Source of the DNA: Arbacia lixula
Lineage: Eukaryota; Echinodermata; Echinoidea; Arbacioida; Arbaciidae
Assembly: GCA_963669155.1 (NCBI GenBank)
Contig: OZ022596.1
Span: 18,463,379-18,527,378, forward strand
Length of the DNA: 64,000 nt
Direction: 5' to 3'
The position numbers and the translations under genes are program-made. This document shows positions 13,741 through 48,400 of the stretch, in pieces. How positions within the stretch are numbered: position 1 is the first letter of the stretch; every line of letters starts with the position of its first letter. Below the pieces are notes generated by a model. It did not search any database and was not told where the DNA came from. It was given only the letters and a program-made list of their open reading frames with translations.

Positions 13741-13750
13741 TATAAAAGTG

Positions 13751-18337: not shown

Positions 18338-19194
18338 ATATAATATCATAGGTAGTCAGTGTATAGTAAGGATGATACGCTAACAAATAAGACAGTGTCA
18401 GGTTCTTTGTACATCAAGCATGAACAATCCATCTGGTAATGCTTTAATACTAACGCTCCAAACAGTTCCACTTTCCAAAAATGAACTTCCTGAAATTTTC
18501 TGAAATTTACCGCTACTTCCTGAAAAAAGTAGAAAAGGCGAGCGGAGTCGCTGAAGTGAGGGGGGAGGATTTTTTTTAAATATGGGCTCTACAGTCAAAA
18601 ACTGGGGGGAAAATAGAGCTAGATCTACATCTCTGTATTATCAACGGTACAGGCTGTAAAAAAAAAATGTTCTATTTTTGACACTCTTTACAATATTTTT
18701 TGCATTTTTGGACACTTTTTGTTTTGCTTAATAAGTATCGGATTTCAGGAGTTTTCATTTATAAGACCGAAAATTCCTGAATTTCGAAAGGTAGCTAATC
18801 ACTGAGCCACTAGATGGGACATATCACGTGCAGTCCTACAAAGACTTGGTCATGAAGTAGCCACCACGACAGTGACTACTTTCCACAAATTACATGCTAT
18901 ATCGCATGTGACTGACTATTACACACTTAGTAGGGGCAGGGTACAATATATAAATAATAAATAAATAACTAAAGTATTGGTTGTATTGTAAAATATATAC
19001 TTTTTTTATTAATCTAGTTCAATCTTACATGTTATTACATTGTTGTTATTAATTTTCATCTAATTGCAAATTATTCGTATTTTTAAGATTCATAATATTT
19101 TAAAGATTATTTCTGAAAAGAAAAAGGGAGTTTCAAGAACATGATGACTCAAATATTGTCATCGATTACAGTATTATTCATCATCGATGACAAC
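18338..19194 (+). repeat. PP module 1 with 5' flank W
   Basis: Flank W (18338-18853) starts AGATATAATATCATAGG and is repeated at 20488. P1 is at 18854-18882 (GAAGTAGCCACCACG ... GTGACTACTTTC). The AT-rich core contains TAAAGTATTGGTTGTATTGT. P2 is at 19156-19194. The core ends with GTTTCAAGAA shortly before P2, as in the other modules. An A-tailed insertion follows P2 and the Z flank resumes at 19410. Confidence 0.75.
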
Positions 19195-19347
19195 AATGAT
19201 GATCAACAATGATGATCAACCTGGGAAAGGGAGGGAGGGGGGAGGGGGGAGGGAACGAAAGCGAGAGAGATAGAGAGGGAGAGAAAGAGAGAGAGAGAGA
19301 AGGAGAGAGAAGGATAGAGACAGAGAGTGAGAGGGAGAGAGGGGGGG

Positions 19348-19399
<52 letters not shown>

Positions 19400-19409
19400 A
19401 AAAAAAAAA
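19195..19409 (+). mobile_element. A-tailed GA-rich insertion at the P2/Z junction
   Basis: Between P2 and Z lie two ATGATGATCAAC repeats, then GGGAAAGGGAGGGAGGGG, a GA tract (about 19260-19394) and 15 A residues (19395-19409). TGATCTAAAAATGTTCG follows directly. In undisturbed modules (28.5, 39.7, 45.0 kb) P2 and Z are adjacent. A G-rich stretch, simple repeat and A tail suggest a very short retroelement 3' end; no element family can be named. Confidence 0.55.
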
Positions 19410-20369
19410 TGATCTAAAAATGTTCGTGAAGCTATGAATGTGAAGTTTCATACAGTTTCCGAGTTTGTGAGTTTCATGACTGTTTGTAAATGGGCTACCC
19501 GCTATCTCTAACAGTGCAAGTGTACCCCAAAGCGATGATGCAGCTAGATTGGAGGTGTGTGTGCTTGGTGGATCGAGATCATCAAGATTGCGGGCGAGGT
19601 TTTGTGAAACTGGGGGAGTTAAAACCAGGACGAGATGTTTGCGTCCAAAAAGAAAAAAAAGCACATAAATGATGAATGTTGTAACACCTGAGTCCAAGAA
19701 AATAAAAAATATATGAACTTGATCTATTCGATCTCGTTTTCTTTCAATTTATACTTCATGTATTGTAGATGTCAATTAAAAAAAAAAGAAGTAGTTGATT
19801 GCTTCCTGAAAAACTGTGTGAAACTTCACAGTCACAGCTTTTCGAAGATTTTCAGATCATGGTTGTCATCGATGATGAATATAATGTAATCGATGACAAT
19901 ATTTGATTAATCTTGGAACTTTCAATAACATGTTTATCATGCAATCAACTACTTCTTTTTTTTTTAATTGACATCTACAATACATGAAGTATAAATTGAA
20001 AGAAAAAGAGATCGAATAGATCAAGTTCATATATTTTTTATTTTCTTGGACTCAGGTGTTACAACATTCATCAATTTATGTGCTTTTGTGTCTTTTTGGA
20101 CGCAAACATCTCCTCCTGGTTTTAACTCCCCCAGTTTCACAAAACCTCGCCCGCAATCTTGATGATCTCGATCCACCAAGCACACACACCTCAAATCAAG
20201 CGGTACCATCGCTTTGGGTACACTTGCACTGTTAGCGGGCAGTCCATTTCCAATGTCTTGAAACTCAGCAAATCGGAAACTGTATGAAACTTCACATTCA
20301 TAGCTTCACGAACATTTTCAGATCATCATGGTTGTCATCAATGATGAATAATACTGTAATCGATGACAA
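19410..20369. repeat. Inverted pair of Z flanks around P2 copies
   Basis: Z on the plus strand (19410 to about 19795; TGATCTAAAAATGTTCGTG, CAAGTGTACCCCAAAGCG, ATCATCAAGATTGCGGGCG) is followed by its inverted copy at about 19945-20327. Between them is a P2 palindrome at 19863-19899, and a second P2 lies at 20332-20369. The two Z arms differ by small indels, for example the CTATCTC insertion near 19502. The arrangement is a large hairpin of about 380-bp arms with a 150-bp centre. Confidence 0.7.
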
Positions 20370-20487
20370 TATTTGATACATTTTTTTTCTTGAAACTTCA
20401 ATATTTTTCAAGAAAGCGTCTTCACAAAATAGCCTATATCTTTGTCATAAAAATTTGTTATTAGATAATAATAAAAAAAAAACGCGT

Positions 20488-21390
20488 CAAAGATATAATA
20501 TCATAGGTGTAGTCAGTGTATAGTAAGGATGATACGCTAACAAATAAGACAGTGTCAGGTTGGTTGTACATCAAGCATGAATAATCCATCAGATAATGCT
20601 TAACACTCACGCTCCAAACAGTTCCACTTGCCAAAAATTAACTTCCTGAAATGAACTCTGAAATTTTCTGAAATTTACCGCTGCTTCCTGAAAAAAGTAG
20701 AAAATGCGAGCGGAGTCGCTAAAGTGAGGGGGGAGGGGGCTTAAAATGGGGTCTACAGTCAAAAAGTGAAAAAAAAAGTAGATCTAGATCTACATCTCTG
20801 TATTATCAACGGACAGATCGGTACAGGCTGTAAAAAAAAAGTAGCTCGATTTTTGACACTCTTTACAATATTGTTTGCACTCTTGGACGCTTCGTGTTTT
20901 TCTTATTATAGGATTTCTGGAAATTCCCTGGAATTATTTTAATTCCTGGAAATTTCCTTGAAAAGACCGAACATTCCTGTGTACCGGGAGGGATGTAAAT
21001 ACTGGGCCATTCGATGTGGGATGTCACGTGTAGTCCTACAAGGCCTTTGACATGAAGTAGCCACCACGGCAGTGGCTACTTTCCACAAAGTACATGCTTT
21101 ATCGCATGTAACGGTGTCTAAGTACAACCTCAGTTGGGTCAGGGTATACAATTTAAATAATAAAAAAATAACAAAAGTATTGGTTGCATTATAAAAAATA
21201 TACTTTTTTATCAATCTAGTTCAATCTTATATACTCTTAAATTGTTCTGATTAATTTTATCTAATTGCAATTTTTTTTCTAAGATTCATACTTTTTTACA
21301 GACTTTTTTTTTTAAAAAGAAAAAGGGAGTTTCAAGAACATGATGGATCAAATATTGTCATCGATTACAGCATTATTCATCATCAATAAT
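20488..21390 (+). repeat. PP module 2 with flank W (direct repeat of 18338-19194)
   Basis: Flank W is repeated at about 2150 bp distance. P1 is at 21054-21082 (GAAGTAGCCACCACGG ... GTGGCTACTTTC). The core follows, and P2 starts at 21355, but its right arm is cut short (CATCATCAATAATGTTCG), so P2 is fused directly to Z. This copy shows a deletion across the site where other copies carry LINE insertions. Confidence 0.7.
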
Positions 21391-21812
21391 GTTCGTGAAG
21401 CTATGAATGTGAAGTTTCATACAGTTTCCGAGTTTCCGAGTTTCATGACATTGGAAATGGGCTGCCCGCTAACAGTGCAAGTGTACCCAAAGCGATGGTA
21501 CCGCTTGATTTGGGGTGTGTGTACTTGATGGATCGAGATCATCAAGATTGCGGGCGAAGTTTTGTGAAACTGGGGGAGTTAAAAACAGGACGAGATGTTT
21601 GTCCAAAAAGAAAAAAAAAACACGGCAAAAGTGCCGAGTTTCATGATTTTTTGCAAATGGGCTACGAGGCTTACTAGGCTCAGTAAGGTTTCATGAATGA
21701 AAACTCTAAATTGATGAATCATGCAAAATCAGCGTTTTGATACGGAGATAAACGCACCTTTTCCTGAAAAACTGTATGAAACTTCAGTCACAGCTTTTCG
21801 AAGATTTTGAGA
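21391..21812 (+). repeat. Z flank repeats on both sides of LINE-B tail
   Basis: Z on the plus strand continues to about 21620 (GAGATCATCAAGATTGCGGGC). From about 21760 to 21812 the Z flank appears in inverted orientation (AACTTCAGTCACAGCTTTTCG, AAGATTTTGAGAT) and runs straight into the poly(T) of LINE-B at 21813. An AAACGC-type repeat piece lies near 21725-21765. Confidence 0.6.
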
Positions 21813-22993
21813 TTTTTTTTGTATTAAGAAGTTTTTATTTGTCAACAACTTCAATTCATACATGTGATATACAAAATAAAATACATACGGCAATACAATA
21901 TATCCTTACAAAGTAATATATGAATACATTGTAAACTCATATAGTTAACACTTTACATTTTCTCTTTTTTCCTTTAGTGTTACAATAACACCTAATAAAA
22001 CTCAACGTACTCAATTTTTTTGTAGTGTCAAAATATTCATAACATGACAAATTTTCCAAATACACAAAGCCAATCATTAATACAACCTAGTCGAATTGAA
22101 GCCATTAACAAGGATTTTCCATAACCCCCCCCCCCTCCCCACCTTGGCCTCATTCCTCAAATATTTCATATCCTCTAACAACAACAACAGCATCTGGCCC
22201 TGAACCCTACACCTCCCCATAACCCCTCCCCCTCCCATGCCCTTCGTCGTCACAACCTTCCCGTTCTACTCGTGTGGGGGCGGAAAGAACGTTTTCTTTC
22301 CTTCTCTGAATGGTAAGAATGAAACAAAAATATATATATATATACATATATATATTAATGAAAAATACTCTCATACCTCAAATAGTTTATTCATTATCGT
22401 TATTATACACACATGTTATTCACACATTTATTCATTTTCACTTCATTTTTTTTTTATTATCATTATTTTATTATTATTATTATTATTATTTTTTATTTTT
22501 TTTTTGCACATCTAGCTCTCCCTAAACTCCTCCCAACATTCCCATTTTCTTAAGTGAAGGGGGTATTTATTTCTATTTAATGCCAATTTTCTTTCTTCAA
22601 ATTCATCTTCTTTGAATTTACGTTTAATCTTATTCAAAACTATTTCTGATTTTTTTTCTCTACCACTGAAAACTAAATACTTCACAAGGATTATTAAGTG
22701 ATTAACCAATTTTTCTTTTCCTTGATCTGCTAATTTTATCCCCCAAAATATGTCTTCCCAAGTAAGATTGGTGAAAGAAACAAAGTCAAAAATATTCTCG
22801 CAGTCTCTCCATATTAATTTTGCTTTTCCGCATTGAAAAAATAAATGACGATAAGTCTCTTCTTCTCTTTTACAGTAGCTACACAGATTAGAATCAACTT
22901 TCCCAAATAAATACAAATGCTGATTTGTATAAATGATTCCGTGTATTAATTTAAATTGGAACTCTCTAAGTCGGCTGTTTAATGTACATTGCC
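21813..22993 (-). mobile_element. LINE-B, 5' truncated, at P2/Z junction
   Basis: Minus-strand non-LTR element with A tail (T at 21813-21820), a 3' UTR with a C run near 22125-22135 (G run in sense), CA-poor AT-rich sequence, and ORF2 C-terminus at 22512-22993. The 5' end joins P2 exactly: GCCTGGTTGTCATCG at 22991. The 3' end joins Z. The element is related to LINE-A but clearly another family by protein sequence. Confidence 0.85.
22512..22993 (-). pseudogene. LINE-B ORF2 C-terminus fragment
   Basis: Encodes about 160 residues starting at QCTLNSRLREFQ and ending at a stop at 22512. It has the CSYC ... H-x4-C zinc knuckle (RHLFFQC). The open frame continues upstream of 22993 into the P2 palindrome, giving a false N-terminus (residues MNQILSSI...MTT are translated host repeat). 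The piece is therefore a 5'-truncated fragment and not an independent gene. No frameshift is seen within it. Confidence 0.85.
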
Positions 22994-24522: not shown

Positions 24523-24588
24523 TTTTTCCCCATCACCACTTTCTCTCCCCTTCTACTGCTCTTTCTATCACTCCCTCACTCACTAACT
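24523..24588 (-). mobile_element. Short A-tailed CT/GA-rich insertion
   Basis: A T run at 24523-24528 and a CT-rich stretch (CCCCATCACCACTTTCTCTC to CACTCACTAACTAA) sit between the Z flank and the poly(T) of LINE-C. It has the same polarity as the GA-rich A-tailed insert at 19195-19409. It may be the tail-end of an earlier insertion at this site. Confidence 0.4.
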
Positions 24589-26377
24589 AATTTTTTTTAT
24601 TGAGTAGTTTTTTTATTGACAACTTCAATTTATATACAAAATAAATGTATACAACAAATAGAACTTTGAAACATAGTATTTTCATGAATGTTACAATAAA
24701 ACACAATGTCATACATCTTCCAATACATAATTATAAATAACATTGATGATAGTTATACGCATCAAGAAGAAACTTCTACAGAAAATTCCAACACAATGAT
24801 TTTTTTCCAGTGTCAAATAAAAAACATTCGAGAAATTTTCCAAATACAAAAGTGAATAAATAAATCATTGATAAAATCTAAACGAATTGAAGCCATCAGC
24901 ATATAGATTTTTGACCATCACCTCGGCCTCTTCACCCAAATAAATTCAAAAACAAACTCAGCCCTTGTCATTACCCCCCCCCCCCCCCCACCTTCCCTTT
25001 AACTCCCCATCCACTATCCGGTGGAGAACTGGCTCTGTGCTCCGATACATGGTCTAATATTTAAGTTTTCCCATTAAGAGAAATGGATTGTAAGGGTCCC
25101 CCTCTTTGTTGCTAATTTCTTTTCTTCTCTTTGATCCCCCCTAATACTATTTTTTATTACAATCAATGAAGGAGTTCTTTTTAATTCTCGGTGTTTGTAA
25201 ATAAGATATTTAACTAAAATCAAAACATGATTAATTAATTGATATTTACCTTTACTTTTCTCCTGCTTCCCGAAAAGAATTTCCTGCCAACTAAATTGAT
25301 TTATTTCAAAATTCAAACTTCTTGCACATAGATCCCAAAGGGATTTTGAAAATTCAGTATAAAGTAAGAGTATAAAATAGATGTTCATACGTTTCTTCTT
25401 TCTTTTTTACAAAATGAGCATAAATTGGTCGAAATAAGACCAAAACGGAAAAGGTGGTGGTTAGTGTATAAAATATTATGCAAGAGTTTATACTGGAACT
25501 CCCTTAATCGACTATTCAGTGTGCAATATCTCAGTCTTAAAAATATACTTTCTATTTCCTTATTGGTAAGATCATAACTCGTTCTAATTCTGTCAAAAAT
25601 AGAAGGTTTAATTTCATTTTTATATAACAGCTGTTCGTATATTTCTTTTGATTTCAAAAACATCAAATTAGTCGTTTTCTTACCCAAATTGAAATCGATT
25701 CCAGAGTTATGCTTTGCATTTATTTCAATATTGTTCTTCCAGCTAACAGGTAAACAGGCATAAATATGCTTAATCTTTTCAACATCATTTGCATCTAAAT
25801 TCATATTAAGAAAATGTGTATCACATTTTAGTTTACCGTTATTATCCAAAATATGATGCAGCCTATAAACCCCTTTATCGTATAGAATCTTATCAAATAT
25901 ACAACTCCCTTTATATCGAATGAGCTTATTATTAAAAATCACCACTTTCCCAAACTCTGTACTTCTATGTCTTATATTTACCCACTATTCTAACAATTCC
26001 ATGTAAAATTTAGAAGCTGTTACTTTCAATAAACCTGGTATATAGTCACATGAAAATAATAGATCTCCACCCAAATGTTTAGTGGCTAAATTAAAGTACC
26101 GTTTCCATTTCATATCTTCAACTTTTTTTAAAAGTCTTTTAATCCACATTATACGCTGTGCCTTTACCTGTACAGGGAAGTTTAACGCCTTTAATCCTCC
26201 TTGCTTATAGTCTAAAAACATTGTATTCCTATTAATTTTGTCTTTCTTACCTTTCCATAAGAAATCAAAAGTTAATTCATCCAATGATTCATAAACCCAC
26301 TTAGGAACAAGAGTAAGAGACGCTCGGAAGAGTACTTTAGAATAGATATGCACCTTCAATAGTTGAATTTTCCCCAT
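24589..26377 (-). mobile_element. LINE-C, 5' truncated
   Basis: Minus-strand non-LTR element. The A tail is seen as T at 24591-24598, followed by GAGTAGTTTTTTTATTGACAA, which is related to the LINE-B 3' end. A C run at 24976-24990 (G run in sense) lies in the 3' UTR. ORF2 sequence covers 25074-26377. The element ends 5' at about 26377, where a T/G-rich run and another insert begin. It differs in protein sequence from LINE-A and LINE-B. Confidence 0.8.
25074..26377 (-). pseudogene. LINE-C ORF2 C-terminal half, broken
   Basis: Three frames carry the sequence. 26377-25985 holds the thumb-like part (GKIQLLKVHIYSK, QGGLKALNFP) and ends at a stop at 25985. 25945-25385 holds the connector and the start of the zinc knuckle (CSFCKKE). 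After a frameshift near 25388 the rest (SWQEILFGKQEKSKG, LINHVLILVKYLI) reads to 25074. The frameshift cuts through the zinc knuckle, so the copy is dead. The homologous order of parts matches LINE-A. Confidence 0.85.
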
Positions 26378-26677
26378 ATTTTTTTGTTTTGTTTTGTTTT
26401 TAACAACTTGTACCGCAAGGTATCATTTATTAATTGTATCTTTAATTAAAAACTCCAGGCCTTTCGACAAATTAGTTGACAAACTACACTATATTATCGC
26501 CGAATAGTGAATGGAGAGCGGTATCGTCTGGTAGTTCTGTCTTATTTTCTAGGTATAATTTACATCATCCAAATACAGCTGACAGCAAATATGCACGTGT
26601 TTATTGATACCTTTATTTTTGTGTAGGTATTTACATCATCCAAATGCAGCTTACAACAAATATGCACGTGTTTATGG
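26378..26677 (-). mobile_element. A-tailed insertion between LINE-C and P2
   Basis: A T-rich run (26379-26401, TTTTTTTGTTTTGTTTTG) is followed by about 270 bp that directly abuts P2 at 26678. Within it a ~70-bp segment (TTTACATCATCCAAATACAGC ... TATGCACGTGTTTAT) is repeated in tandem at 26569 and 26631. If the T-rich run is an A tail, this is a third retro-insert with the same polarity at the same junction. Confidence 0.4.
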
Positions 26678-27012
26678 TTGTAATCGATGATAAATAATGC
26701 TATAATCGATCACAATTTTTGATTCATTCTCATCTTGAATCTTCAATGATTTATTTTAAAAAAAAGAGTCTTCAAACATCAGACTACATTTTAAGTTATA
26801 AATAATATGTAAATTAATAGAAAAATCATCAATAGTGCAATATTATATGAAATTGCACTAGATTAATTAAAAAAGATACATTTAACAATAAAACCAATTA
26901 TTTGTTATTTTAAAATTATATAGATATGTATCGTTCCTCATTTAAACACAGTTTTACGTGAAATTTATTTCACAAGTTTTTGAGGGGTACTCACTGCCGT
27001 GGTGAGTCCTTA
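26678..27012 (-). repeat. PP module 4
   Basis: P2 at 26678-26715 (TTGTAATCGATGATAAATAA ... AATCGATCACAA), core, and P1 at 26985-27012 (GGGTACTCACTGCCG ... GTGAGTCC). Minus orientation. Confidence 0.75.
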
Positions 27013-27875: not shown

Positions 27876-27879
27876 TTAA

Positions 27880-28330: not shown

Positions 28331-28536
28331 TATAAAAAAATTATACACGGCAGGTCAAAGCCCGGGTGTCCCATTCACCAAAATTCATGAAACTCGGCAG
28401 GAATCAGGGACTATATTCATGAAACCTTCCTAAGATAATAAGCCTAGTAGTGTGTTTGCAAAAAAATCATGAAACTCAGCAAATCGGAAACTGTATGAAA
28501 ACTTCACATTCATAGCTTCACATTTTCAGATCATGG
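28331..28536 (-). repeat. Z flank, undisturbed, minus
   Basis: Carries the outer Z landmarks (GTCCCATTCACCAAAATTC, CATGAAACTCGGCAGGAAT) and the inner ones (CAAATCGGAAACTGTATG, TTTTCAGATCATGG). It runs without interruption into P2 at 28537, so this locus is an empty target site for the LINE insertions. Confidence 0.7.
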
Positions 28537-28866
28537 TTGTCATCGATGATGAATAATGCTGTAATCGATGACAATATTGAGTAAATCTTCTTCTTTTTCT
28601 TGAAACTTCAATCATTTGTTTGAAGAAAAAGTCTTTCAAAATGAACAAAAAAATTATGTGAATAAATATAAAAAAACAACAATTATGTTTTAAATGCATC
28701 TAAAAATGCACTAGTTAAAAGATATAAAGAAGTGTAAATCTTATAATATAACCATTTTTTCTTTTTAAATATTTTATACATATATGTTGAGTGCCCATTC
28801 TTAGACAGCGCGTGAAAAAAAATTCACAGTTTTTGGGGAAGTATCCACTGCCGTGGTGGGTACTTT
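28537..28866 (-). repeat. PP module 5 (empty site)
   Basis: P2 at 28537-28574, core, and P1 at 28838-28866 (GAAGTATCCACTGCCG ... GTGGGTACTT). Z joins P2 directly, with no LINE. A good reference copy. Confidence 0.8.
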
Positions 28867-30512: not shown

Positions 30513-33500
30513 TTTTTTTTGTTTCAACATGTATTTTATTAATCAATGAACACCAATTTTACAGAACATTAAACAATTATTCATGAATGATTTGAATGAC
30601 AATTACTGTAACAAATAAATTATTTCCAGAAACATATTCGTCATAATTATTGATCATAACAAATTTATACAAACTGTCAGATTTTTCAAGAATTACATCA
30701 AATTACAACAATAAAGAAAAACAACCATTAATCGCTGTTCAAAAGGAAAAACATATCATTCGCTCATTGTGTTCATTGATAAATTAGATAAGAAAAAAGG
30801 ACACCAAAAAGGCCCTTCCCTCCATTTCCCTTACCCCACCCCTCCACCATACCCCGCCCTCTCCTTTCCCTCACTCCTCCCCCCCCCCCCCCCCCCCCCC
30901 CGGGCTTCTTATACATGCACTTATTTCTTCTGGAACAGGAGCATACATATTACCATCTCTAGAACGAGTTGCAGGGCATATCTTGGTGGATACTAAAAAT
31001 ACTTCTGAATTGTCGTCCCACTCCTTCAATGTTAATAAATATACGTTTTTATTTTAGTTTGTTTTATTTTATTTTCAAATACATAAAGACTCACAAGGCA
31101 GGGGAGCCCTACCATAACCAATTTTCCCACTTTTTCAAGTGCACTGATAATGTATTATGCAAAACTGCTATCCTTTTTTCTTCTAACCTATCTTGTTCAA
31201 TCTGGCTTTTAACCGATTGTTCAGTTATTTGTGTGTTCTTTCCTCTTCCTAAGAAAATTAATCTTTTTACCAGTATTAAAACATGATTAACTAATTGACC
31301 TCTTCCTTTGTCCGGTAAGTCAATTCCAAAATAAATCTCTTCCCAGCTTAAGTTTTTTAAATTTATATAATCAAGAAGGTTACTGCACCGTTCCCATATC
31401 ATCCCAGCAAATTCACACGTATAAAATATATGTTTATAAGTCTCTTCCTCTTTGTGACAAAATGAACATAAGTTATCATCAGTAATGTTGAATTTACATA
31501 AATGATAGTTCGTATATAATATTCCGTGTAATAACCTAAATTGGAAATCCCTTAATATACAGTTCAAAGTACTTTTTCTAGGTCTACTAAATACCGATTT
31601 TATATCTGTATCAGAAAACTCGCGAGTATGTACATTTCTCATTTTTTCTTTCAAAGATGACTTATCTCTTATCTTTTCCACAAAATCATTATAAACTTGT
31701 TTAGATGTATTCGTATCTAAAGAAAATTTACAGCTATTTCTTATAAAAGTCATTTCATCACATGTATCAGTTCCTGGTTCCGTATTTTCTATTTTCCTTT
31801 TCCAAACTAATGGAAGTACTTCATATATTCTTCGAATAATCAAAACCTCTGAATAAACCAGACCTTTACTATAAAGATAAGCCGCCGAATATAACTCCCC
31901 ACTCCTGTCTACAATATGTTCCACTCTAAAAAAATTCTTCAACTGCAAATTTTCATTATAAATAGATTTTCCTTCAATTCGAATCATTTTATTATTTAAA
32001 AGGACTTCCTTCCGTACCTGATTATGATTACCCCTAAATTCCTTCGTTTTTGCCCAGACTTCTAATAAGTTCGCATAGAATAGCGGTATAGACAAATCCA
32101 AAAGGTCTACTAAATAATTACAACAAAATATAAATTTGCCTCCTATCTGCTTTGTACATTCCTCAAAGTATTGTTTCCATTTCATTTCTTGTTTACCATA
32201 ACAAAGCCTTTTAACCCACATTACTCTTTGAGCGTCTATTAATGATGGAAAATGCATTAATTTTAAGCCCCCTTGTTCATAACCTAAAGTTAAAACACTT
32301 TTATTAATCTTCGGTTTTCCTCGCCAAATAAAATCCCAAACAATACTTTCTAACTCACCATATACCCAGTTTGGCACCGGAGTGAGAGAGGCTATATATA
32401 TAAGCTTAGAATAAATAAAAGTCTTCAATAACTGAATTTTACCCTGTAGTGTCAAATCTCTTTGCTTCCACCATGTCAATGTTTTTTTAATTTTACTTAG
32501 AATTTCTTTATAGTTCTTATTTTCCTTCACATCGGGATCCAACGTGAAGTATACCCCTAAAATCTTTAAAACACCCACTTTTTGCCCGAAAACTCCACCA
32601 TACTCCCCATCTTCATCTTGACTACTTCCAAGTTGTAACAATTTCGTCTTATCTTTATTTATTTTGAGACCGGAAACCGCCTTAAAACCCTCAAAAACCA
32701 CTACTAATCTCCTGATGGATTCAATATCTTGTACTAATAGAGTAATATCGTCCGCATAAAGCACCTGCTTGACTTCGTTTGACCCGAACGGTAAGCCTAA
32801 GATATCTTTATCCTTCCTTATATTGTGTGCCAAAACTTCAATACATAAAATAAAAAGATAGGGTGACAACGGGTCTCCTTGTCTAACTCCCTTTTCGACC
32901 TTAAAATATCCTGTGGATTTACCCCCATTAAAAACACAACTAAGGGCATTATTATAGATAGTATCCACCCATTTCCGGAATGACGGTCCAAAACCGAAAG
33001 ACAAAAGGACCTCTTGTATAAAACTATGAGCAATTGAATCGAAAGCCTTTTCAAAATCAATGGCAACTAAATAACCCGGTAAATCAAAATGTGATGTGTG
33101 GAATATCATATCATCTATGATACGTATTGCTTCACCAATATTTCTGCCCTTCATAAATCCCATTTGATCTTCCAAAATAATTTCATCCAAAACTTGTGTA
33201 ACTCTCAACGACAAAACTTTAGATAAAATTTTGTAATCCACATTGAGTAATGAAATAGGCCTATAATTCTTTATTTGCAATAGATCCTTGTCCTCTTTAG
33301 CAATTAGAATAATCATTGCTTGCTTTTGAGAGGCCGATAATTCCCCATATTGATATGCTTCATTAAAGGCCTCTACAACTAACTGCCCTATAACCGGCCA
33401 AAAAGTTTGATAAAATTCTACAGTTAGGCCGTCATTCCCGGGTGATTTATTCAGCCTCATTTTTTCTAAAACCTGTATACACTCCCTTTCAGATATTAAT

Positions 33501-34477
33501 CCTTCACACAACTTTCTAGACTCTAAAGATAACGTGGGTAAATCTGAATGAAAGAAGGGATTGTCTAAGTAGTGGATCACCTCCGATTTCGCATATAATT
33601 TACTATAAAAGTGCTTAATTTCAATGATTATATCTGCTTCATTATGAATAATTTCCCCCTCTTCATTAACAATCTTTTTAATGGTACTTTTCCTTTTATT
33701 TGACTGCATTAACTGCGTAAAAAATCGCACATCTTTCTCACCCCCTTCATAGTATTACCAAGAGGTACGGGAGCGAATCTTAACTCCTTCATTAACATAA
33801 TCATAACTTATTTGTAATTCCCGTTTTTTCTCTTCCAGTATTTTATATGTCTCTTGGTTTGGTTGATCTACTAAACTTTTTTCTAAATCTTCAATCTCTT
33901 GCTCAAGTTTTCTTCTCTGTTCTTTCCTATTTTGAGCAAGTTTCTTAGAAAAACGTTGCGTAAATTGACGAATTTTTAATTTCAAAAAGTCCCAAAGGAC
34001 TCTTTTATCTTGAATCTCTACTTGTAAGTCCCCTTTTAAATTCAAAATTTCTTCTTTCATTTGCTGAACATAAGCAGCGTCATTGCACAGACTATTATTA
34101 AATTTCCAATAAGAGCCTTTATTTTTTATCTGTGTTTCACGTTTATCAAAAAGACGTAACTCTATTGCCGAATGATCAGGAGCAATTGAATACATTATTT
34201 CACATTTTACCACTAGGTCAACCAAATCTTCTGAGATTATCCAATAATCTAAACGACTTTGCATGAATGGTAATTTCTGCCTATAAGTATATTGTTTTTT
34301 TGTTGGGTTTTTATTCCTCCAAATATCTATTAAGTTCCATGTGTACATAAAATTTTCCATTTCCAAATTGAATCTATTTTGACCTACAGGTTTATTACTA
34401 CCTACATAATCTAACTCTTCATTTTGAATCATATTAAAATCCCCACCCATTATAACCGGAAGATGTAGATGATACAC
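30513..34477 (-). mobile_element. LINE-A copy 3, longest and nearly intact
   Basis: Nearly 4 kb on the minus strand. A tail as T at 30513-30520, 3' UTR with a C run near 30881-30900, and ORF2 from 34477 to 31109. The 5' end is truncated within the endonuclease. The tail side joins the Z flank (TTTCAGATCA). The 5' side joins outer PP-repeat sequence (GATTCCACGTTACACCC) and not P2, so this locus has been rearranged or the 5' end was resolved elsewhere. Confidence 0.92.
31109..34477 (-). pseudogene. LINE-A ORF2: endonuclease (partial), reverse transcriptase, zinc knuckle
   Basis: The encoded polyprotein would nick target DNA and reverse-transcribe its own RNA. From the 5' end it has the C-terminal half of an APE-type endonuclease (GGDFN near residue 10, SRLDYW, then DHSAI), a charged linker, and the RT domain. 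In the 873-residue distal frame RT motifs are YRPISLLN at 156, catalytic AIDFEKAFD at 223, GVRQGDP at 281 and YADD at 325. The CCHC knuckle is near 755. The frame is open except for one stop at 33755-33757, caused by a 6-bp insertion relative to the 45.5 kb copy (TGGTATGAAG there). The N-terminus of the endonuclease and ORF1 are absent. L1/Tx1-type affiliation rests on domain order and motif style, not on a search. Confidence 0.92.
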
Positions 34478-34911: not shown

Positions 34912-34949
<38 letters not shown>

Positions 34950-35585: not shown

Positions 35586-35630
35586 CACAGTGTTATGTTT
35601 CTGGAAATAATTTTTTTTATTTGTTACAGT

Positions 35631-38264
35631 CAGTGTTGTAGTCAAGACCAGACCATCCGAGACCAAGATCAAGACCAAGACCAAACACCCCGAGACCAAG
35701 ATCAAGAACCAAAAAATTGGTTCAAGATCAAGAACAGAGGTCCGAGACCGAGAACACCAAATTACGAGATCAAGACCAAGACCAAGACCACTCACCAGTA
35801 TTTAAATTTCTACTAGTTTTGAGGAAACACGCGTTATTTGTGAACTATGGTTATGAGTATAAACTGTCTAATCCTAGCACAACTTGCACAACATGGGCAG
35901 TCTGTAATATTCTTCTATATGGTTGAATTAAATGAAAAAATTGTTTTAAAAAGTTATACTTTCAATGTGCTTTTTCAATCACTTCACAGGCATGCTCAAA
36001 GCTAAATGCACAATACAAGTCAGTAGCTAGTAGTTTAGCAACAAACTGCACAAAGGATCCAGGATCGTGATAATATGTATGATGGGGAAAAATACTTAGT
36101 TATTTCTGCATGAACATATTTGCCTGAGTTACATAAAAACATATCAAATACTGTGATTTTTTTTTTGATAATGACAAAGGCACAAGGCATACAAAATGAA
36201 CGCAACTTCTTTCAAGAATGATGATTGTTTTCCGAAATATATTCAAGTCATTCGTTTTTCTCTATAAACACATACACATGACTTGAGTTACTTAATACTT
36301 ATATATTTTTCTTATATACTTCTTTATTTCTGCATGGACATATTTGCCTGAGCTCCTGAAAAACATCAAATACTGTGAAGTTTTTTTTATAATAATGCCA
36401 AAGACACAAGGCATACAAAATAAACACAACTTCATTTCAAGAATGATGATTGTTTTCCGAAATATATTCGTCATTCGCTTTTCTCTATAAACACATACAC
36501 ATGACCCGAGTTACTTATATATTCTTCTTATATACTTCTTTATTTCTGCATGAACATATTTGCCTGAGCTCCTGAAAAACGTATCAAATACTGTGAAGTT
36601 TTTTTTAATAATGCCAAAGACACAAGGCATACAAAATAAACACAACTTCATTTCAAGAATGATGATTGTTTTCCGAAACAGATTCGGAAAACATTCATTT
36701 TTCTCTACAAACGCATACACGTTACTTATATATAGGTCAGGCAAATTAAGTATTGGTCAAACTTTATCTTAGTAACCAAAACCTGCACCATTATGATATA
36801 AATGAATAATTATAACTCCACCATTTTCGAGATGTATACACTAATACAATGTAAAAAGCCTGTCATCATTCAAAAAGACCTGTGACAACTCGAGGGCATT
36901 CTCTATAGACTTATTGGTTTTAGCAATTTTTCATACAAAATTGTGCAATTCCTATTTTGTTAAAATAATTACTGAATAGGGATATCATCAAGAACTATTC
37001 AAAAACTTACTTTGATTTTTGAAAGTAATCTATTATGCATTTCTTGCATTATCTAAAAAGTCGCCTGGCCAGGCGACTTATTAAAAATATTTTTCAACTA
37101 TAAGAGCATTTAAGAGAGAATTATTCTGCCACGCATTTCATTTAATTAACTTTCAATAGGAATTAAAAACCAATCAACTTAGTGACATGGGGCATTTCTG
37201 GAATTACCAATACTCAACCATCCCTTTTACAAATTAATGCAACGATACAGCAAGGAAATAACTAAATACACACTATTCGCTAACAAATACAAACAAAACA
37301 TGACATTTCTAGAATTATTGTTTCCCAAGCTTGTTTTAATACTTTTCCTCTTAATTTAACTTTAATGAAAGGAAATGTGAATATATGACCCCATAAAAAT
37401 GTTTCAAGAATAATGAAATGTATACATTCACGTTTATTCCTGTGTTATTTTTTTCTATTTGTTTTTTGATTCCATGATATCATTTTATTTGGCATGGTTG
37501 GGCCTCAGTTTATCAGTTTTAACAGCCCCCCCCCAAAAAAAAAAAAAAAAAAATACTGTTCGGAATTAGCACTAGAATGAAGAAATTCAATGCTTGCATA
37601 AAAAGCGTATATTTATGTACATTACAAATGATAACTACTACAAAAAACAACTAAAATAGAAAAAGATATCAGGCATTTCATGTAAAAATCTGTTTCATTA
37701 TGGAGATGTTCATTTGTGTTTATCTGCAAAATTCCTTAGTTATTGAATGGTGGCAAGACATGCTCATTGCACTTCAGAAACATTAACAATTCCAATATGC
37801 GTGAAGACAGCTTCGCACGATGTGGCCGCATTAATTATGATACAGTGTGATGCGCTTTGCATGTGTGATGTTGGCACAGAATTATATTGCATGCTCGCTA
37901 ATCTGCATCTCACGCTTCCCGTGCTATGCAGTGGTCGGGCAGGGGCCGGGCCGGGTCGGCGGCAGGCTTGCACAGTATAGTAGGGATGATTGTAACTCCA
38001 AATTGTATGCGCTCCGACCAAGGAGAGTAATGTATCGTATCTCCTTTCTCCGACATGCATTATCAATATGATTTATGTGTAATATCGTAATTTTAGTAGC
38101 TGGTCTCGTGCTGGTCTCGACGTAAAATCCGAGACCAGAAAGGCTCAAGACCAAGAACAAGACCAAGACCAGAGGGTTCGAGACCGAGATCAAGACCAAG
38201 AACAAAAATCCTGATCTCGAGACTGGTCTCGAGACCAAGACCAGTCTCGAGAACTACAACACTG
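35631..38264. mobile_element. Non-autonomous hAT-like transposon, 2634 bp
   Basis: Terminal inverted repeats CAGTGTTGTAGT and ACTACAACACTG mark the ends. Both subterminal regions are packed with GACCAAGACC/GGTCTCGAGACC repeats over 120-170 bp. The 8-bp flanks GTTACAGT (35623-35630) and GTTACAAT (38265-38272) differ by one base, and intact LINE-A copies have a single GTTACAGT here. CAGTG ends plus an 8-bp duplication are diagnostic of hAT. No transposase ORF was recognised; the interior holds a triplicated ~220-bp tandem repeat and a moderately GC-rich stretch near 37750-38000. Confidence 0.85.
36101..36735 (+). repeat. Tandem repeat, about three copies of a 216-224-bp unit
   Basis: Units start TATTTCTGCATGAACATATT at 36101, 36325 and 36541. 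Each contains CAAATACTGTGA, AAGGCATACAAAAT and GAATGATGATTGTTTTCCGAA. The last unit degenerates near 36735. The repeat lies inside the hAT-like element. Confidence 0.85.
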
Positions 38265-38365
38265 GTTACAATAATTGTCATTTAAATCATTCATGAATAA
38301 TTGTTTAATGTTCTGTAAAATTGGTGTTCATTGATTAATAAAATACACGTTGAAACAAAAAAAAG

Positions 38366-39470: not shown

Positions 39471-39732
39471 CAAGGTTGAAGCGGCAGAGTATTTCTAGAA
39501 ATCTAAGGTATTGGTTATAGCTACTGTATTGTAAAATAAATTCTCCTTTTATTACTCGAATGCATTTTCTATATAATATTACATCGTTTTTAATTTATAT
39601 TTAATTACAAATCATTTTTAAAGATATGAGCTATTCTTTGAATACTCGTTCTTGAGTAAATCATTGAAGTTTCAAGAAGAAAATTAATCAAATATTGTCA
39701 TCAATACAGCATTATTCATCATCGATGACAAC
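39471..39732 (+). repeat. PP module 8 (P1 degraded, empty site)
   Basis: The core AAGGTATTGGTTATAGCTACTG runs to P2 at 39695-39732, and Z follows at once (GGTGATCTGAAAATATTCG). P1 is not recognisable where expected. Z continues to about 39845. Confidence 0.65.
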
Positions 39733-40030
39733 ATGGTGATCTGAAAATATTCGTGAAGCCATCTATGAATGTGAAGTTTCGTACAGTTTCCGAGCTTTAT
39801 GACTTTTTGCAAATGCAGTGGGCTACGCGCTTTCTTTAGCAGTGTAAGTGTACATTATAAAGTTTAATTTACAAATTACTGTATTTGTCATACCTCGAAA
39901 GGGTCGACAGAAATAGCAAATAACCATCAAACATCAAAATTTGATCCAAAACCTCGCTTCCAACAATAGCGCCCATGTGGCACTACAGCTTTATCGGAGA
40001 ATAATGGCTTTCTTTGAGAATCTTTGCTAT
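39733..40030 (+). repeat. Z flank then partial X flank
   Basis: Z landmarks GTACAGTTTCCGAGC and GCAGTGTAAGTGTACA end near 39850. X landmarks GTCATACCTCGAAAGGGTCG and TAGCGCCCATGTGGCACTAC follow up to P1 of the next module. This gives a repeating order X-P1-core-P2-Z. Confidence 0.6.
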
Positions 40031-40360: not shown

Positions 40361-40370
40361 CCACAGTGAC

Positions 40371-40963
40371 TTTATAATGATTTTGTGGGAAAGATAAGAG
40401 ATAAGTCATCTTTGAAAGAAAAAATGAGAAATGTACATACTCGCGAGTTTTCTGATACAGATATAAAATCGGTATTTAGTAGACCTAGAAAAAGTACTTT
40501 GAACTGTATATTGAGGGATTTCCAATTTAGGTTATTACACGGAATATTATATACGAACTATCATTTATGTAAATTCAACATTACTGATGATAACTTATGT
40601 TCATTTTGTCACAAAGAGGAAGAGACTTATAAACATATATTTTATACGTGTGAATTTGCTGGGATGATATGGGAACGGTGCAGTAACCTTCTTGATTATA
40701 TAAATTTAAAAAACTTAAGCTGGGAAGAGATTCATTTTGGAATTGACTTACCGGACAAAGGAAGAGGTCAATTAGTTAATCATGTTTTAATACTGGTAAA
40801 AAGATTAATTTTCTTAGGAAGAGGAAAGAACACACAAATAACTGAACAATCGGTTAAAAGCCAGATTGAACAAGATAGGTTACCGGTAGAAGAAAAAAGG
40901 ATAGCAGTTTTGCATAATACATTATCAGTGCACTTGAAAAAGTGGGGAAATTGGATATGGTAG
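40371..40963 (+). pseudogene. LINE-A ORF2 C-terminus fragment
   Basis: Open to the TAG at 40961-40963, about 195 residues, including the CSFC ... HIFYTC zinc knuckle. It shares a 6-bp insertion (DRLPVEEKR, against DRLEEKR) and the ending KKWGNWIW with the copy at 48.4 kb. Those two therefore form a subfamily. It is a 5'-truncated fragment without RT. Confidence 0.88.
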
Positions 40964-41501
40964 GGCTCCCCTGCCTTGTGAGTCTTTATGTATTTGAAAA
41001 TAAAATAAAACAAACTAAAATAAAACGTATATTTATTAACTTTGAAGGAGTGGGACGACAAATCAGAAGTATTTTTAGTATCCACCAAGATATGCCCTGC
41101 AACTCGTTCTAGAGATGGTAATATGGGGGGGGGGGGGGGTGGAGGGAAAGGAGAGGGCGGGGTATGGTGGAGGGGTGGGGTAGGGGAAATGGAGGGAAGG
41201 GCCTTTTTGGTGTCCTTTTTTCTTATCTAATTTATCAATGAACACAATGAGCGAATGATTTGTTTTTCCTTTTGAACAGCGATTAATGGTTGTTTTTCTT
41301 TATTGTTGTAATTTGATGTAAGTCTTGAAAAATCTGACAGTTTGTATAAATTTGTTATGATCAATGATTATGACGAATATTCTGGAAATAATTTATTTAT
41401 TTGTTACAGTAATTGTCATTTAAATCATTCATGAATAATTGTTTAATGTTCTGTAAAATTGGTGTTCATTGATTAATAAAATACATGTTGAAACAAAAAA
41501 A
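40371..41501 (+). mobile_element. LINE-A copy 5, 5' truncated, with 8-bp flanking repeat
   Basis: Starts inside ORF2 at TTTATAATGATTTTG and ends with an A tail at 41494-41501. AGTGACTT precedes it (40365-40372, overlapping the truncation point) and follows the tail (41500-41508), so a target duplication of about 8 bp is visible. P2 lies on the left and the Z flank (CAAAATGTTCTTGAAGCG) on the right. The 3' UTR lacks about 43 bp before the G run compared with copy 1, as does copy 7. Confidence 0.9.
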
Positions 41502-42409: not shown

Positions 42410-42410
42410 C

Positions 42411-42812
42411 TATGTGCACGTATAAGAAGCCCGGGGGGGGGGGGGGGGGGTGGAGGGAAAGGAGAGGGCGGGGTATGGTGGAGGGGTGGGGTAGGGGTAA
42501 TGGAGGGAAGGGCCTTTTTTGTGTGCTTTTTTCTTATCTAATTTATCAATGAACACAATGAGCGAATGATATGTTTTTCCTTTTGAACAGCGATTAATGG
42601 TTGTTTTTCTTTATTGTTGTAATTTGATGTAATTCTTGAAAAATCGGACAGTTTGTATAAATTTGTTATGATCAATAATTATGACGAATATGTTTCTGGA
42701 AATAATTTATTTGTTACAGTAATTGTCATTTAAATCATTCATGAATAATTGTTTAATGTTCTGTAAAATTGGTGTTCATTGATTAATAAAATAAATGTTG
42801 AAACAAAAAAAA
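42411..42812 (+). mobile_element. LINE-A copy 6, 3' UTR only
   Basis: Starts at TGTGCACGTATAAGAAGCCC in the 3' UTR and includes the G run (42433-42450), the purine-rich stretch, and the conserved end to an A run at 42804-42812. P2 abuts the 5' end. The right flank is not Z; Z resumes only at 43685, after another A tract. Confidence 0.9.
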
Positions 42813-43684
42813 TCTCTGAGCTCGACCTAAATGGAATCGATAACACCGATAATCAAAAACCGATAATGACAATCATGATATAGAGCACTACGATATTTTG
42901 TTCACAAATTCACATGGAAAATCTATGCATGCCTTGAAACGTGAAGACGATGATACTTCTTTGAAATATTTTATCAAAGGCGATATATTACTCCTCGGGT
43001 AAAAAGCATCATTTTATGAAAGAAATGTAATGCTGAGGCTTGAATCGAATGTACTTTCGATTGTTTACGTGGAGCGGTAGAAAATAACATTTACATTTTG
43101 CAGACTTTATAGAATTTCACTTGATCCTTTGTAATATTCAATACATCACCATTTAAAAAAGGGATTTTTGTTGTGCCTTGATACTCACCATTTATATATT
43201 TCTACTCCAAAATTAAGCATAAGCTACTACAAGCAGTATACTGCTAGTTTTAATAAGATTTTATGTATCACTTATCTCTTAAGCTGCAAATTCTAAAATC
43301 TATTTCGAAATTAGATTAGCAAAAGTGCATTTCTGTGGGAAAACAACTTTGTGTTATCTATACTAATGCCCTTTTTTTATCAAAATCATATTAATCTGTC
43401 TTTTTATTAATATCACCAATGTAAGTATTTATTTATCTTATTATTAAAAGATTGTTTCACAAGTCATCAAGATTTGTAAAATTGATGTTATAAGTCACAT
43501 AACAAATCCACTATATTCTTACAACGAGTATCCCAAAGTTGCTGCTTTATCTAATACGAGTAATCCTTTTCACACTTTCCACTCTGTGTTGTCAGTTTAT
43601 CATGCAATGCTGTATATGAAATGTCATAATGCTGTTCATTTGGAAATTAAAAAACTGATTTGATTTCAATATCAAAAAAAAAAA
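42813..43684 (+). mobile_element. A-tailed segment downstream of LINE-A copy 6
   Basis: An 870-bp stretch without recognised repeats. It ends in 11 A residues (43674-43684) that join the Z flank (TGATCTGAAAATGTTCG). ATTAAA lies about 25 bp upstream of the A tract (43645-43650). The simplest readings are a 3' transduction by LINE-A copy 6, or a second retro-insert stacked at the same junction. Confidence 0.45.
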
Positions 43685-43890: not shown

Positions 43891-43960
43891 GAATATACTA
43901 TTGCCTTCAAAATGTGATCATGAGCAATCTTCTTACCAGTGGTCATAAAAATTTACCCAT

Positions 43961-44690: not shown

Positions 44691-45028
44691 GAAGTATTCA
44701 CCACGGCAGTGAATAACTTGCCAAAGATAATGATTACAACTTTAAGTCAGGAACTTTCTTTTCCAATGAATGTATATGAGTATATGAATGATTATATAAT
44801 AGCAAAATATTGGTTGTATTGTAAAATGTATACCTTTTCTTTATTAATGTAGTACAATTTCATATGATATAACATGGTTGTTGTTGGTTTTCATCTAATT
44901 ACAAATTATTCTTATTCTTAAGATATAAGCTATTTTTAAGACTTTTTTTTAGAAAAAATCATTGAAGTTTCAAGAAGATGATGAATCAAATATTGTCATC
45001 GATTACAACATTATTCATCATCGATGAT
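44691..45028 (+). repeat. PP module 11 (empty site)
   Basis: P1 at 44691-44719 (GAAGTATTCACCACGG ... GTGAATAACTT), core, and P2 at 44993-45028, joined directly to TGATCTGAAAATTTTCG. Z then continues to about 45215, including the distal landmarks CTGATTCCTACCGAG and GTGAATGGGACACC. Confidence 0.8.
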
Positions 45029-45443
45029 GATCTGAAAATTTTCGTGAAGCTATGGATGTGAAGTTTTCATACAGTTTCCGAGTTGCTGAGTTTCATGAGT
45101 TTTTGCAAATAGGCTTGCTAGGCTTAGTAAGGTTTCATGAGTGTAGTCCCTGATTCCTACCGAGTTTCATGACGTTTGGTGAATGGGACACCCTGTCTTT
45201 GACTTGACGTGTATGATTTGTATAATAGCAACATTTTGAGTGTCTTCTGCTTCGATAATTATGTTGTTTGTGAAACATCGATTTGCGTGTGTTTAAATTA
45301 CTATTTAAATAGATAATCATCCTAGATCAGCGTTTTGATACGCGTTTAGTGCATTTTGATTACCGCCGTTTTAAAACGTCGTTTCAAAACACAGAAAAAT
45401 GTTTGTTTCCATCGCCGATTCTGACTAATGACGTTAATAAAAT
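45029..45443 (+). repeat. Z flank and AAACGC repeat
   Basis: Z to about 45225. Then CTGCTTCGATAATTATG and GTTTTGATACGCGTTTAG, an AAACGC-type repeat related to 28.15-28.25 kb but inverted. No gene. Confidence 0.5.
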
Positions 45444-45484
45444 ATTATCATCGATTACAGCATTATTTATCATCGATGATCACC
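45444..45484 (+). repeat. Isolated P2 palindrome next to LINE-A copy 7
   Basis: TTATCATCGATTACAGCATT ... ATCATCGATGATCACC without a preceding core or P1. LINE-A copy 7 starts directly after ATCACCA. Confidence 0.75.
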
Positions 45485-48400
45485 ATTTAAAAGGGGACTT
45501 ACAAGTAGAGATTCAAGATAAAAGAGTCCTTTGGGACTTTTTGAAATTAAAAATTCGTCAATTTACGCAACGTTTTTCTAAGAAACTTGCTCAAAATAGG
45601 AAAGAACAGAGAAGAAAACTTGAGCAAGAGATTGAAGATTTAGAAAAAAGTTTAGTAGATCAACCAAACCAAGAGACATGTAAAATACTGGAAGAGAAAA
45701 AACGGGAATTACAAATAAGTTATGATTATGTTAATGAAGGAGTTAAGATTCGCTCCCGTACCTCTTGGTATGAAGGGGGTGAGAAAGATGTGCGATTTTT
45801 TACGCAGTTAATGCAGTCAAATAAAAGGAAAAGTACCATTAAAAAGATTGTTAATGAAGAGGGGGAAATTATTCATAATGAAGCAGATATAATCATTGAA
45901 ATTAAGCACTTTTATAGTAAATTATATGCGAAATCGGAGGTGATCCACTACTTAGACAATCCCTTCTTTCATTCAGATTTACCCACGTTATCTTTAGAGT
46001 CTAGAAAGTTGTGTGAAGGATTAATATCTGAAAGGGAGTGTATACAGGTTTTGGAAAAAATGAGGCTGAATAAATCACCCGGGAATGACGGCCTAACTGT
46101 AGAATTTTATCAAACTTTTTGGCCGGTTATAGGGCAGTTAGTTGTATGTTAGTTTAATGAAGCATATCAATATGGGGAATTATCGGCCTCTCAAAAGCAA
46201 GCAATGATTATTCTAATTGCTAAAGAGGACAAGGATCTATTGCAAATAAAGAATTATAGGCCTATTTCATTACTCAATGTGGATTACAAAATTTTATCTA
46301 AAGTTTTGTCGTTGAGAGTTACACAAGTTTTGGATGAAATTATTTTGGAAGATCAAATGGGATTTATGAAGGGCAGAAATATTGGTGAAGCAATACGTAT
46401 CATAGATGATATGATATTCCACACATCACATTTTGATTTACCGGGTTATTTAGTTGCCATTGATTTTAAAAAGGCTTTCGATTCAATTGCTCATAGTTTT
46501 ATACAAGAGGTCCTTTTGTCTTTCGGTTTTGGACCGTCATTCCGGAAATGGGTGGATACTATCTATAATAATGCCCTTAGTTGTGTTTTTAATGGGGGTA
46601 AATCCACAGGATATTTTAAGGTCGAAAAGGGAGTTAGACAAGGAGACCCGTTGTCACCCTATCTTTTTATTTTATGTATTGAAGTTTTGGCACACAATAT
46701 AAGGAAGGATAAAGATATCTTAGGCTTACCGTTCGGGTCAAACGAAGTCAAGCAGGTGCTTTATGCGGACGATATTACTCTATTAGTACAAGATATTGAA
46801 TCCATCAGGAGATTAGTAGTGGTTTTTGAGGGTTTTAAAGCGGTTTCCGGTCTCAAAATAAATAAAGATAAGACGAAATTGTTACAACTTGGAAGTAGTC
46901 AAGATGAAGATGGGGAGTATGGTGGAGTTTTCGGGCAAAAAGTGGGTGTTTTAAAGATTTTAGGGGTATACTTCACGTTGGATCCCGATGTGAAGGAAAA
47001 TAAGAACTATAAAGAAATTCTAAGTAAAATTAAAAAAATATTGACATGGTGGAAGCAAAGAGATTTGACACTTCAGGGTAAAATTCAGTTATTGAAGACT
47101 TTTATTTATTCTAAGCTTATATATATTGCCTCTCTCACTCCGGTGCCAAACTGGGTATATGGTGAGTTAGAAAGTATTGTTTGGGATTTTATTTGGCGAG
47201 GAAAACCGAAGATTAATAAAAGTGTTTTAACTTTAGGTTATGAACAAGGGGGCTTAAAATTAATGCATTTTCCATCATTAATAGACGCTCAAAGAGTAAT
47301 GTGGGTTAAAAGGCTTTGTTATGGTAAACAAGAAATGAAATGGAAACAATACTTTGAGGAATGTACAAAGCAGATAGGAGGCAAATTTATATTTTGTTGT
47401 AATTATTTAGTAGACCTTTTGGATTTGTCTATACCGCTATTCTATGCGAACTTATTAGAAGTCTGGGCAAAAACGAAGGAATTTAGGGGTAATCATAATC
47501 AGGTACGGAAGGAAGTCCTTTTAAATAATAAAATGATTCGAATTGAAGGAAAATCTATTTATAATGAAAATTTGCAGTTGAAGAATTTTTTTAGAGTGGA
47601 ACATATTGTAGACAGGAGTGGGGAGTTATATTCGGCGGCTTATCTTTATAGTAAAGGTCTGGTTTATTCAGAGGTTTTGATTATTCGAAGAATATATGAA
47701 GTACTTCCATTAGTTTGGAAAAGGAAAATAGAAAATACGGAACCAGGAACTGATACATGTGATGAAATGACTTTTATAAGAAATAGCTGTAAATTTTCTT
47801 TAGATACGAATACATCTAAACAAGTTTATAATGATTTTGTGGAAAAGATAAGAGATAAGTCATCTTTGAAAGAAAAAATGAGAAATGTACATACTCGCGA
47901 GTTTTCTGATACAGATATAAAATCGGTATTTAGTAGACCTAGAAAAAGTACTTTGAACTGTATATTAAGGGATTTCCAATATAGGTTATTACACGGAATA
48001 TTATATACGAACTATCATTTATGTAAATTCAACATTACTGATGATAACTTATGTTCATTTTGTCACAAAGAGGAAGAGACTTATAAACATATATTTTATA
48101 CGTGTGAATTTGCTGGGATGATATGGGAACGGTGCAGTAACCTTCTTGATTATATAAATTTAAAAAACTTAAGCTGGGAAGAGATTCATTTTGGAATTGA
48201 CTTACCGGACAAAGGAAGAGGTCAATTAGTTAATCATGTTTTAATACTGGTAAAAAGATTAATTTTCTTAGGAAGAGGAAAGAACACACAAATAACTGAA
48301 CAATCGGTTAAAAGCCAGATTGAACAAGATAGGTTACCGGTAGAAGAAAAAAGGATAGCAGTTTTGCATAATACATTATCAGTGCACTTGAAAAAGTGGG

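Follow-up and report, generated by a model that had tools for sequence, protein, structure and literature searches.

LINE insertions beside a palindromic repeat

The window analysed here is a stretch of 64,000 nucleotides (nt) of DNA from the sea urchin Arbacia lixula with a GC content of 35%, taken from contig C21 (18463379–18527378) of an assembly of 607 Mb in 590 contigs. It contains copies of three families of long interspersed nuclear elements (LINEs), here called LINE-A, LINE-B and LINE-C, which lie among copies of a dispersed host repeat. Two motifs of this repeat matter for what follows: the palindrome P2 (TTGTCATCGAT...ATCGATGACAACCA), which closes a segment called X that runs from P1 to P2, and Z (TGATCTGAAAATGTTCG), the flank that adjoins P2 at uninserted sites. 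Z has 11 matches in the window against 0.35 expected (up to 3 mismatches), and P2 has 11 against 0.57 expected (up to 2 mismatches). Ten P2 copies hold the word ATCGAT twice, 21–24 nt or about two helical turns apart, and four further copies, at 20359, 21360, 30058 and 39721, have kept it once. As developed below, LINE-A is very probably a member of the L1 superfamily that inserts by target-primed reverse transcription, preferably at ATCGAT, with the nick about 10–11 nt (range 8–11) downstream of this word.

The double words and the uninserted junctions are as follows.

P2 copies with two ATCGAT words: 19161/19183, 19868/19889, 23002/23023, 26683/26705, 28542/28564
P2 copies with two ATCGAT words, continued: 35550/35574, 40326/40350, 42377/42399, 44998/45020, 45450/45472
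19843..19899, minus strand: uninserted P2/Z junction, exact join at 19860/19859
20309..20369, minus strand: uninserted P2/Z junction with 3 extra nt (TGA) between, 20329/20325
28517..28574, minus strand: uninserted P2/Z junction, exact join at 28534/28533
39695..39753, plus strand: uninserted P2/Z junction with small indels
44993..45044, plus strand: uninserted P2/Z junction, CAACCA missing

P2 and Z also adjoin with small indels at 30.07 kb, and a deleted form of the join is found at 21387. At six other loci A-tailed DNA separates P2 from Z, and the poly(A) faces Z every time; a seventh locus appears to have been split by an inversion. The inserts, together with the LINE-A copies that lie elsewhere in the window, are listed here.

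1..1366, plus strand: LINE-A copy 1; its head lies beyond the window, and its tail is not on Z
9278..13750, minus strand: LINE-A copy 2; 5' flank ATCGATTCTGATCA, that is, ATCGAT 8 nt away; not at P2
19157..19196, plus strand: P2 with ATCGAT twice; the GA-rich insert comes next
19197..19409, plus strand: GA-rich A-tailed insert; TGATGATC repeated at the 5' side, TGATC after the poly(A)
21813..22993, minus strand: LINE-B, 5'-truncated, 8–11 nt past the last ATCGAT of P2 (by eye)
24523..26674, minus strand: insert with LINE-C (about 24602–26422); diverged Z; P2 at 26675–26715
30513..34465, minus strand: LINE-A copy 3; tail on Z; one end of the proposed inversion
35592..38365, plus strand: LINE-A copy 4 (35592–35630 and 38265–38365), between P2 and Z
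40371..41501, plus strand: LINE-A copy 5, flanked by P2 and Z, with GTGAC as the target duplication
42411..43684, plus strand: LINE-A copy 6, which runs to 42813 and is followed by an A-tailed 3' extension of 870 nt; P2 and Z on either side
45486..48973, plus strand: LINE-A copy 7; P2 at its head; second end of the proposed inversion

In P2, the second ATCGAT is 10 nt from the nick of LINE-A copy 5 and, by eye, 8 nt from copy 6 and 8–10 nt from the LINE-C insert. Also by eye, ATCGAT lies about 10 nt from copy 4, and the last ATCGAT is 8 nt upstream of the GA-rich insert. The ATCGAT beside LINE-A copy 2 stands on its own, whatever the relationship of the divergent P1/P2 pair upstream of it to the host repeat X, for which the best nhmmer E value there is 0.86. 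Within the LINE-C insert there is an A-tailed 3' extension of about 80 nt and, on the 5' side, about 250 nt of other DNA. The latter (26423–26674) ends in an A-rich run between P2 and LINE-C; it reflects either a template jump or an insertion that preceded LINE-C at this site. LINE-A copy 4 is interrupted by a hAT-like element (35631–38264), which has the ends CAGTGTTGTAGT...ACTACAACACTG and an 8-nt near-duplication, GTTACAGT/GTTACAAT.

Such an arrangement could arise if one ancestral insertion had been copied together with its surroundings, and the host repeats are indeed alike on both sides of the inserts. However, the LINE-A copies in the window are 91.9–99.0% identical to one another, far more alike than the X flanks (about 330–400 nt; six inserted loci and one uninserted), which are only 57.6–82.9% identical. 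The Z flanks at seven loci are 45.7–79.8% identical, and the 5' truncation point varies among the LINE-A copies. The insertions are therefore independent, and segmental duplication of a single insertion is excluded with near certainty. In these respects the window bears out the original prediction, which had described LINE-A, LINE-B, LINE-C and GA-rich inserts between P2 and Z, in a fixed orientation and as separate events.

The same prediction had placed the tail of the 30.5 kb copy on Z and the head of the 45.5 kb copy on P2, and both are seen. These copies, 3 and 7, are inverted relative to each other with their heads face to face. When P2 (45485) is rejoined to Z (30512), a canonical P2/Z site results, in which the joint is 8 nt from the second ATCGAT (by eye). 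The other two flanks were also rejoined, with 3 nt missing from the tail flank as entered; the result matches an uninserted paralogue near 29.1 kb in a gapped alignment of about 40 nt that spans the joint. The simplest account of the split pair would be an inversion between two inverted LINE-A copies. The inversion partner that lies off the P2/Z target has ATCGTG at 9 nt in place of ATCGAT.

LINE-B and LINE-C, which share 48% identity with LINE-A over 155 amino acids (aa) and 35% over 198 aa, respectively, are, to judge from their proteins, separate families of the LINE-A lineage. Elsewhere in the window, long near-perfect hairpins at 18134–18231 (40 of 40 arm positions paired) and 61864–61945 (31 of 32) are apparently unrelated to P2. 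A gene resembling SLC46 occupies the right end; its nearest relatives are Lytechinus and Strongylocentrotus proteins, with 69–70% identity, as fits an echinoid.

ATCGAT at LINE-A insertion sites across the assembly

The assembly has at least 91 LINE-A 3' ends, of which 90 tails were read. ATCGAT ranked first among all hexamers in the final 75 nt of the LINE-A 5' flanks. It was present in 23 of 40 flanks and in 6 of 118 control segments from these flanks, with p = 7e-12 uncorrected for the roughly 2,000 hexamers. This bears out a ClaI-type ATCGAT element as the core of the target, which the original prediction had placed at the edge of such a palindrome. The enrichment is confined to the vicinity of the junction: ATCGAT is found in 15 of 40 flanks at 0–25 nt, in 11 of 40 at 25–50 nt, and then in 1–3 of 39–40 per bin out to 400 nt. 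In the 3' flanks the corresponding counts are 19/85 (0–50 nt) and 16/85 (50–100 nt), followed by 3/85, 4/85 and 2/71. Near-duplicates were removed before counting, namely 5 of the 90 3' flanks and 3 of the 43 heads. Some of the 40 heads scanned were imperfect, and a redone head set lists 49 as resolved.

The spacing was measured in a set of 41 sites with target duplications trimmed. Here, the nick follows the end of ATCGAT by 8–11 nt at 15 of the 41 sites, and at 13 of these 15 the distance is 10 or 11 nt. From the 20 ATCGAT words in 21,600 nt of distal flank, 0.15 sites with a distance of 8–11 nt would be expected. Outside the window alone the count is 12 of 36. When all hexamers were combined with all gaps from 0 to 40 under every admissible target duplication, the best pairs were ATCGAT at gap 11 (8 sites) and ATCGAT at gap 10 (6 sites). 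In the best 4-nt gap window ATCGAT reached 17 of 41, and words not overlapping it reached at most 4, with a median of 1. Further support came from six upstream pieces that were fetched after the motif had been fixed. Three of them reached the 5' junction, all with ATCGAT within 22 nt; in two the word is exactly 11 nt from the nick, with the duplications CCTT and TACCGTAT, and in the third (L058) it is 22 nt away and no target duplication was found.

In composing the 41-site set from the 49 heads, L043 (twice) and L089, which are nested, and L040, in which the 5' end was not reached, were set aside. Four heads with less than 100 nt upstream were also left out; L011 and L066 have ATCGAT within 16 nt, and L064 and L067 are without it. 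Window copies 3, 4 and 7 were entered by hand as three sites, L045 was counted as a miss, and LINE-A L034 contributes two heads that share one inverted sequence, one a match and one a miss. Window copy 6 is a miss in the count of 15 because 5 nt of flank were assigned to the LINE in the alignment, and copy 4 is a match in that count and not in the scan of all hexamers and gaps.

The matches lie in diverse surroundings. Among the 300-nt contexts of the twelve matches outside the window, no BLAST match was found with low-complexity masking; L027 and L048 are, however, both located within microsatellites of the TCTA type, a likeness that the masking hid. At the 15 match sites only one position outside the hexamer has a base shared by more than 9 of the 15, namely the A directly before the nick (10 of 15). 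The sites thus do not fit the canonical L1 nick, TTTT/AA, since this sense-strand base is mostly A and not T; in the same count the base after the nick cannot be A by construction.

Nine of the twelve sites outside the window have a single ATCGAT in the 45 nt upstream, and thus the double word of P2 is not needed. Targets L015 and L049 have pairs of ATCGAT with a spacing of 22–23 nt, similar to that in P2. The original prediction had proposed the P2/Z junction as a new target, in the manner of Tx1-type elements that are strictly specific for one repeated sequence, and the tail flanks by which it was to be judged speak against it. Although at least six insertions occupy the junction in the window, Z follows only 4 of the 90 LINE-A tails. 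In one tail beyond these four, that of L040, TGATCTGAAAA comes after an additional A-rich stretch. A search of the assembly for the joined P2/Z sequence (27 nt), with up to 3 mismatches allowed, gave two matches, and both are within the window. As a general rule, strict specificity for this junction of one dispersed repeat is refuted, and we regard it as scarcely credible. What stood of the prediction is directed, oriented and independent insertion centred on ATCGAT; what fell is the junction as its target.

Several observations weigh against targeting by ATCGAT. An exact ATCGAT lies within 60 nt in only 26 of the 41 heads, and 15 are without it. Some of these 15 do have near-variants at about the right distance, namely ATCGTA (L022), ATCGCG (L041) and the ATCGTG of the off-target window copy, though in others, such as L017, L018, L025, L046 and L047, there is nothing like it. 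The enrichment in the 3' flanks is not independent evidence, as ATCGAT is often clustered. The nick position depends on the call of the target duplication, which is ambiguous in repetitive flanks, and the heads examined number 41 plus 3 of 90 copies. For LINE-B, ATCGAT was seen by eye within 100 nt in 1 of 20 3' flanks (20 of the 69 found), and the junction of a third copy, LINE-B L034, was not located. The two LINE-B heads that were read, the window copy (8–11 nt) and L050 (8 nt), both fit ATCGAT. Because the LINE-B 3' flanks are not enriched, an extension of ATCGAT targeting to LINE-B and LINE-C is suggestive only.

Two groups of LINE-A copies deserve separate mention. L009 and L010 (C8:5.42 Mb) form an inverted pair with both tails in the same palindrome-rich repeat, and the target duplication of L009 is 30 nt long or longer. 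On C12, three 3' ends in the same orientation, at 16449722, 16454236 and 16458747, are spaced 4,514 and 4,511 nt apart and are probably a tandem array.

The LINE-A element and its proteins

LINE-A is a multicopy and probably recently active element. Its copy L040 (C8:1995601–2003638) has an intact second open reading frame (ORF2) of 1,269 aa with the Pfam domains Exo_endo_phos, RVT_1 and zf-RVT, and window copy 3 carries a reverse transcriptase frame of 881 aa and part of the endonuclease frame. ORF2 is colinear with residues 21–892 of human L1 ORF2p (E = 4e-105; the best R2 match has E = 2e-22). The order of an apurinic/apyrimidinic endonuclease (APE) followed by a reverse transcriptase, the position of L1 ORF2p as the closest of the solved structures, the poly(A) 3' end and the variable 5' truncation all place LINE-A in the L1 superfamily. 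The Pfam scan of ORF2 found no DNA-binding domain beyond the endonuclease, the reverse transcriptase and zf-RVT. The same strand of L040 has no second open reading frame of at least 150 aa, and so no ORF1 was seen; upstream of ORF2 there are, by eye, imperfect repeats with units of several hundred nt. ATCGAT is absent from 6,038 nt of L040 (LINE-A together with 1,668 nt upstream of ORF2), in which 5.6 would be expected at the distal-flank rate and about 2 by dinucleotide expectation.

Rfam gave 0 matches, IMG/VR yielded no confirmed LINE-A relative and no exact 20-nt P2 match, and the GTDB genomes had no exact 24-nt P2 match.

How ATCGAT could direct insertion

Target-primed reverse transcription uses the APE endonuclease and the reverse transcriptase. 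For LINE-A, the bottom strand would be nicked at the stated distance downstream of ATCGAT, as read on the sense strand of the element. The poly(A) would thereby abut the nick, ATCGAT would come to lie on the 5' side, and the copies would be variably 5'-truncated. Apart from ATCGAT, the target would be unconserved. As P2 mostly has ATCGAT twice, it would not be surprising that P2/Z junctions were hit repeatedly, by LINE-B and LINE-C too. A protein bound at ATCGAT, either the LINE's own or one of the host, may hold the endonuclease at a distance of one helical turn, on the same face of the DNA.

Tx1L, R1 and TRAS target one repeated gene, transposon or microsatellite site; Tx1L, for example, sits within the Tx1D transposon of Xenopus. 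LINE-A is likewise found within another repeated element, but for LINE-A this repeat is incidental, as most of the 90 tails lie elsewhere. Docking on RNA polymerase III factors has been proposed for TRE5-A and Ty3. The APE-type endonuclease, reverse transcriptase and C-terminal zinc region of ORF2, the poly(A) and the 5' truncation are shared with human L1, which nicks at TTTTT/AA (PMC8565326), whereas the marker of LINE-A is ATCGAT, about one turn from the nick. APE endonuclease and directed insertion are shared with the Tx1/R1-clade LINEs (PMC4640811), from which LINE-A differs in that its target is a dispersed 6-nt word in many contexts. TRE5 of Dictyostelium inserts about 50 bp upstream of tRNA genes, and in vitro data suggest an interaction of TRE5-A ORF1p with TFIIIB (PMC5006619). 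Like LINE-A, TRE5 keeps a fixed distance from its landmark, to which host factors bind; for LINE-A the landmark is a hexamer 10–11 nt away and the host factor is only putative.

Recognition by the LINE itself, in which ORF2p (through an endonuclease loop, the linker or the zinc finger) or ORF1p binds ATCGAT and the cut is made one turn away, has about an even chance of being correct. It fits the spacing of one helical turn, the existence of site-specific APE LINEs in the Tx1 and R1 clades (PMC4640811) and the absence of ATCGAT from L040, but ORF2 shows no extra DNA-binding domain and no ORF1 was seen in L040. A possible but less probable arrangement is tethering, in which a Cut-homeodomain factor (CUX or ONECUT) binds ATCGAT, and the LINE complex docks on it and nicks one turn away. 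ATCGAT is the core of most CUT-homeodomain motifs (PMC4077741), the offset is fixed at gaps of 10 and 11 while the nick site is otherwise unconserved, and TRE5 offers a precedent (PMC5006619). The tight 10–11 nt spacing, however, would suit a DNA-binding domain of the LINE equally well, and ATCGAT is bound by other proteins too, such as Miz-1 (PMC4077741). That the LINE seeks hairpins or cruciforms, with ATCGAT as a by-product, is very improbable. P2 does fold (z = -2.3), and the targets L005, L009, L022 and L052 are palindrome-rich by eye; yet the spacing is measured from the hexamer, most outside sites have a single ATCGAT as noted above, and other palindromic hexamers are found at 0–5 sites compared with 16 for ATCGAT (up to 1 mismatch, gap 8–11). 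The hairpin was dropped as the target.

Returning to delivery by a host protein, it is rather doubtful that a Cut-homeodomain factor brings LINE-A, and LINE-B and LINE-C with it, to ATCGAT for nicking one helical turn away. In titles and the beginnings of abstracts, with Repbase and most subscription journals outside the search, we found no literature that joins ATCGAT, retrotransposon and target site or that describes this target.

To our knowledge, LINEs with an APE endonuclease are either weakly specific, as L1 is, or fixed on one repeated gene or array. For a LINE of this type ATCGAT is an unusually short, readable address, and an element whose address is short, dispersed and set at a fixed offset would stand between these two classes. 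Target finding by LINEs would become directly testable, with one hexamer, one spacing and one protein, and an L1-type machine addressed by a hexamer would interest engineers of targeted DNA writing. If delivery by a Cut-homeodomain factor were true, LINE insertion sites would record across the genome where that factor sits in the germ line.

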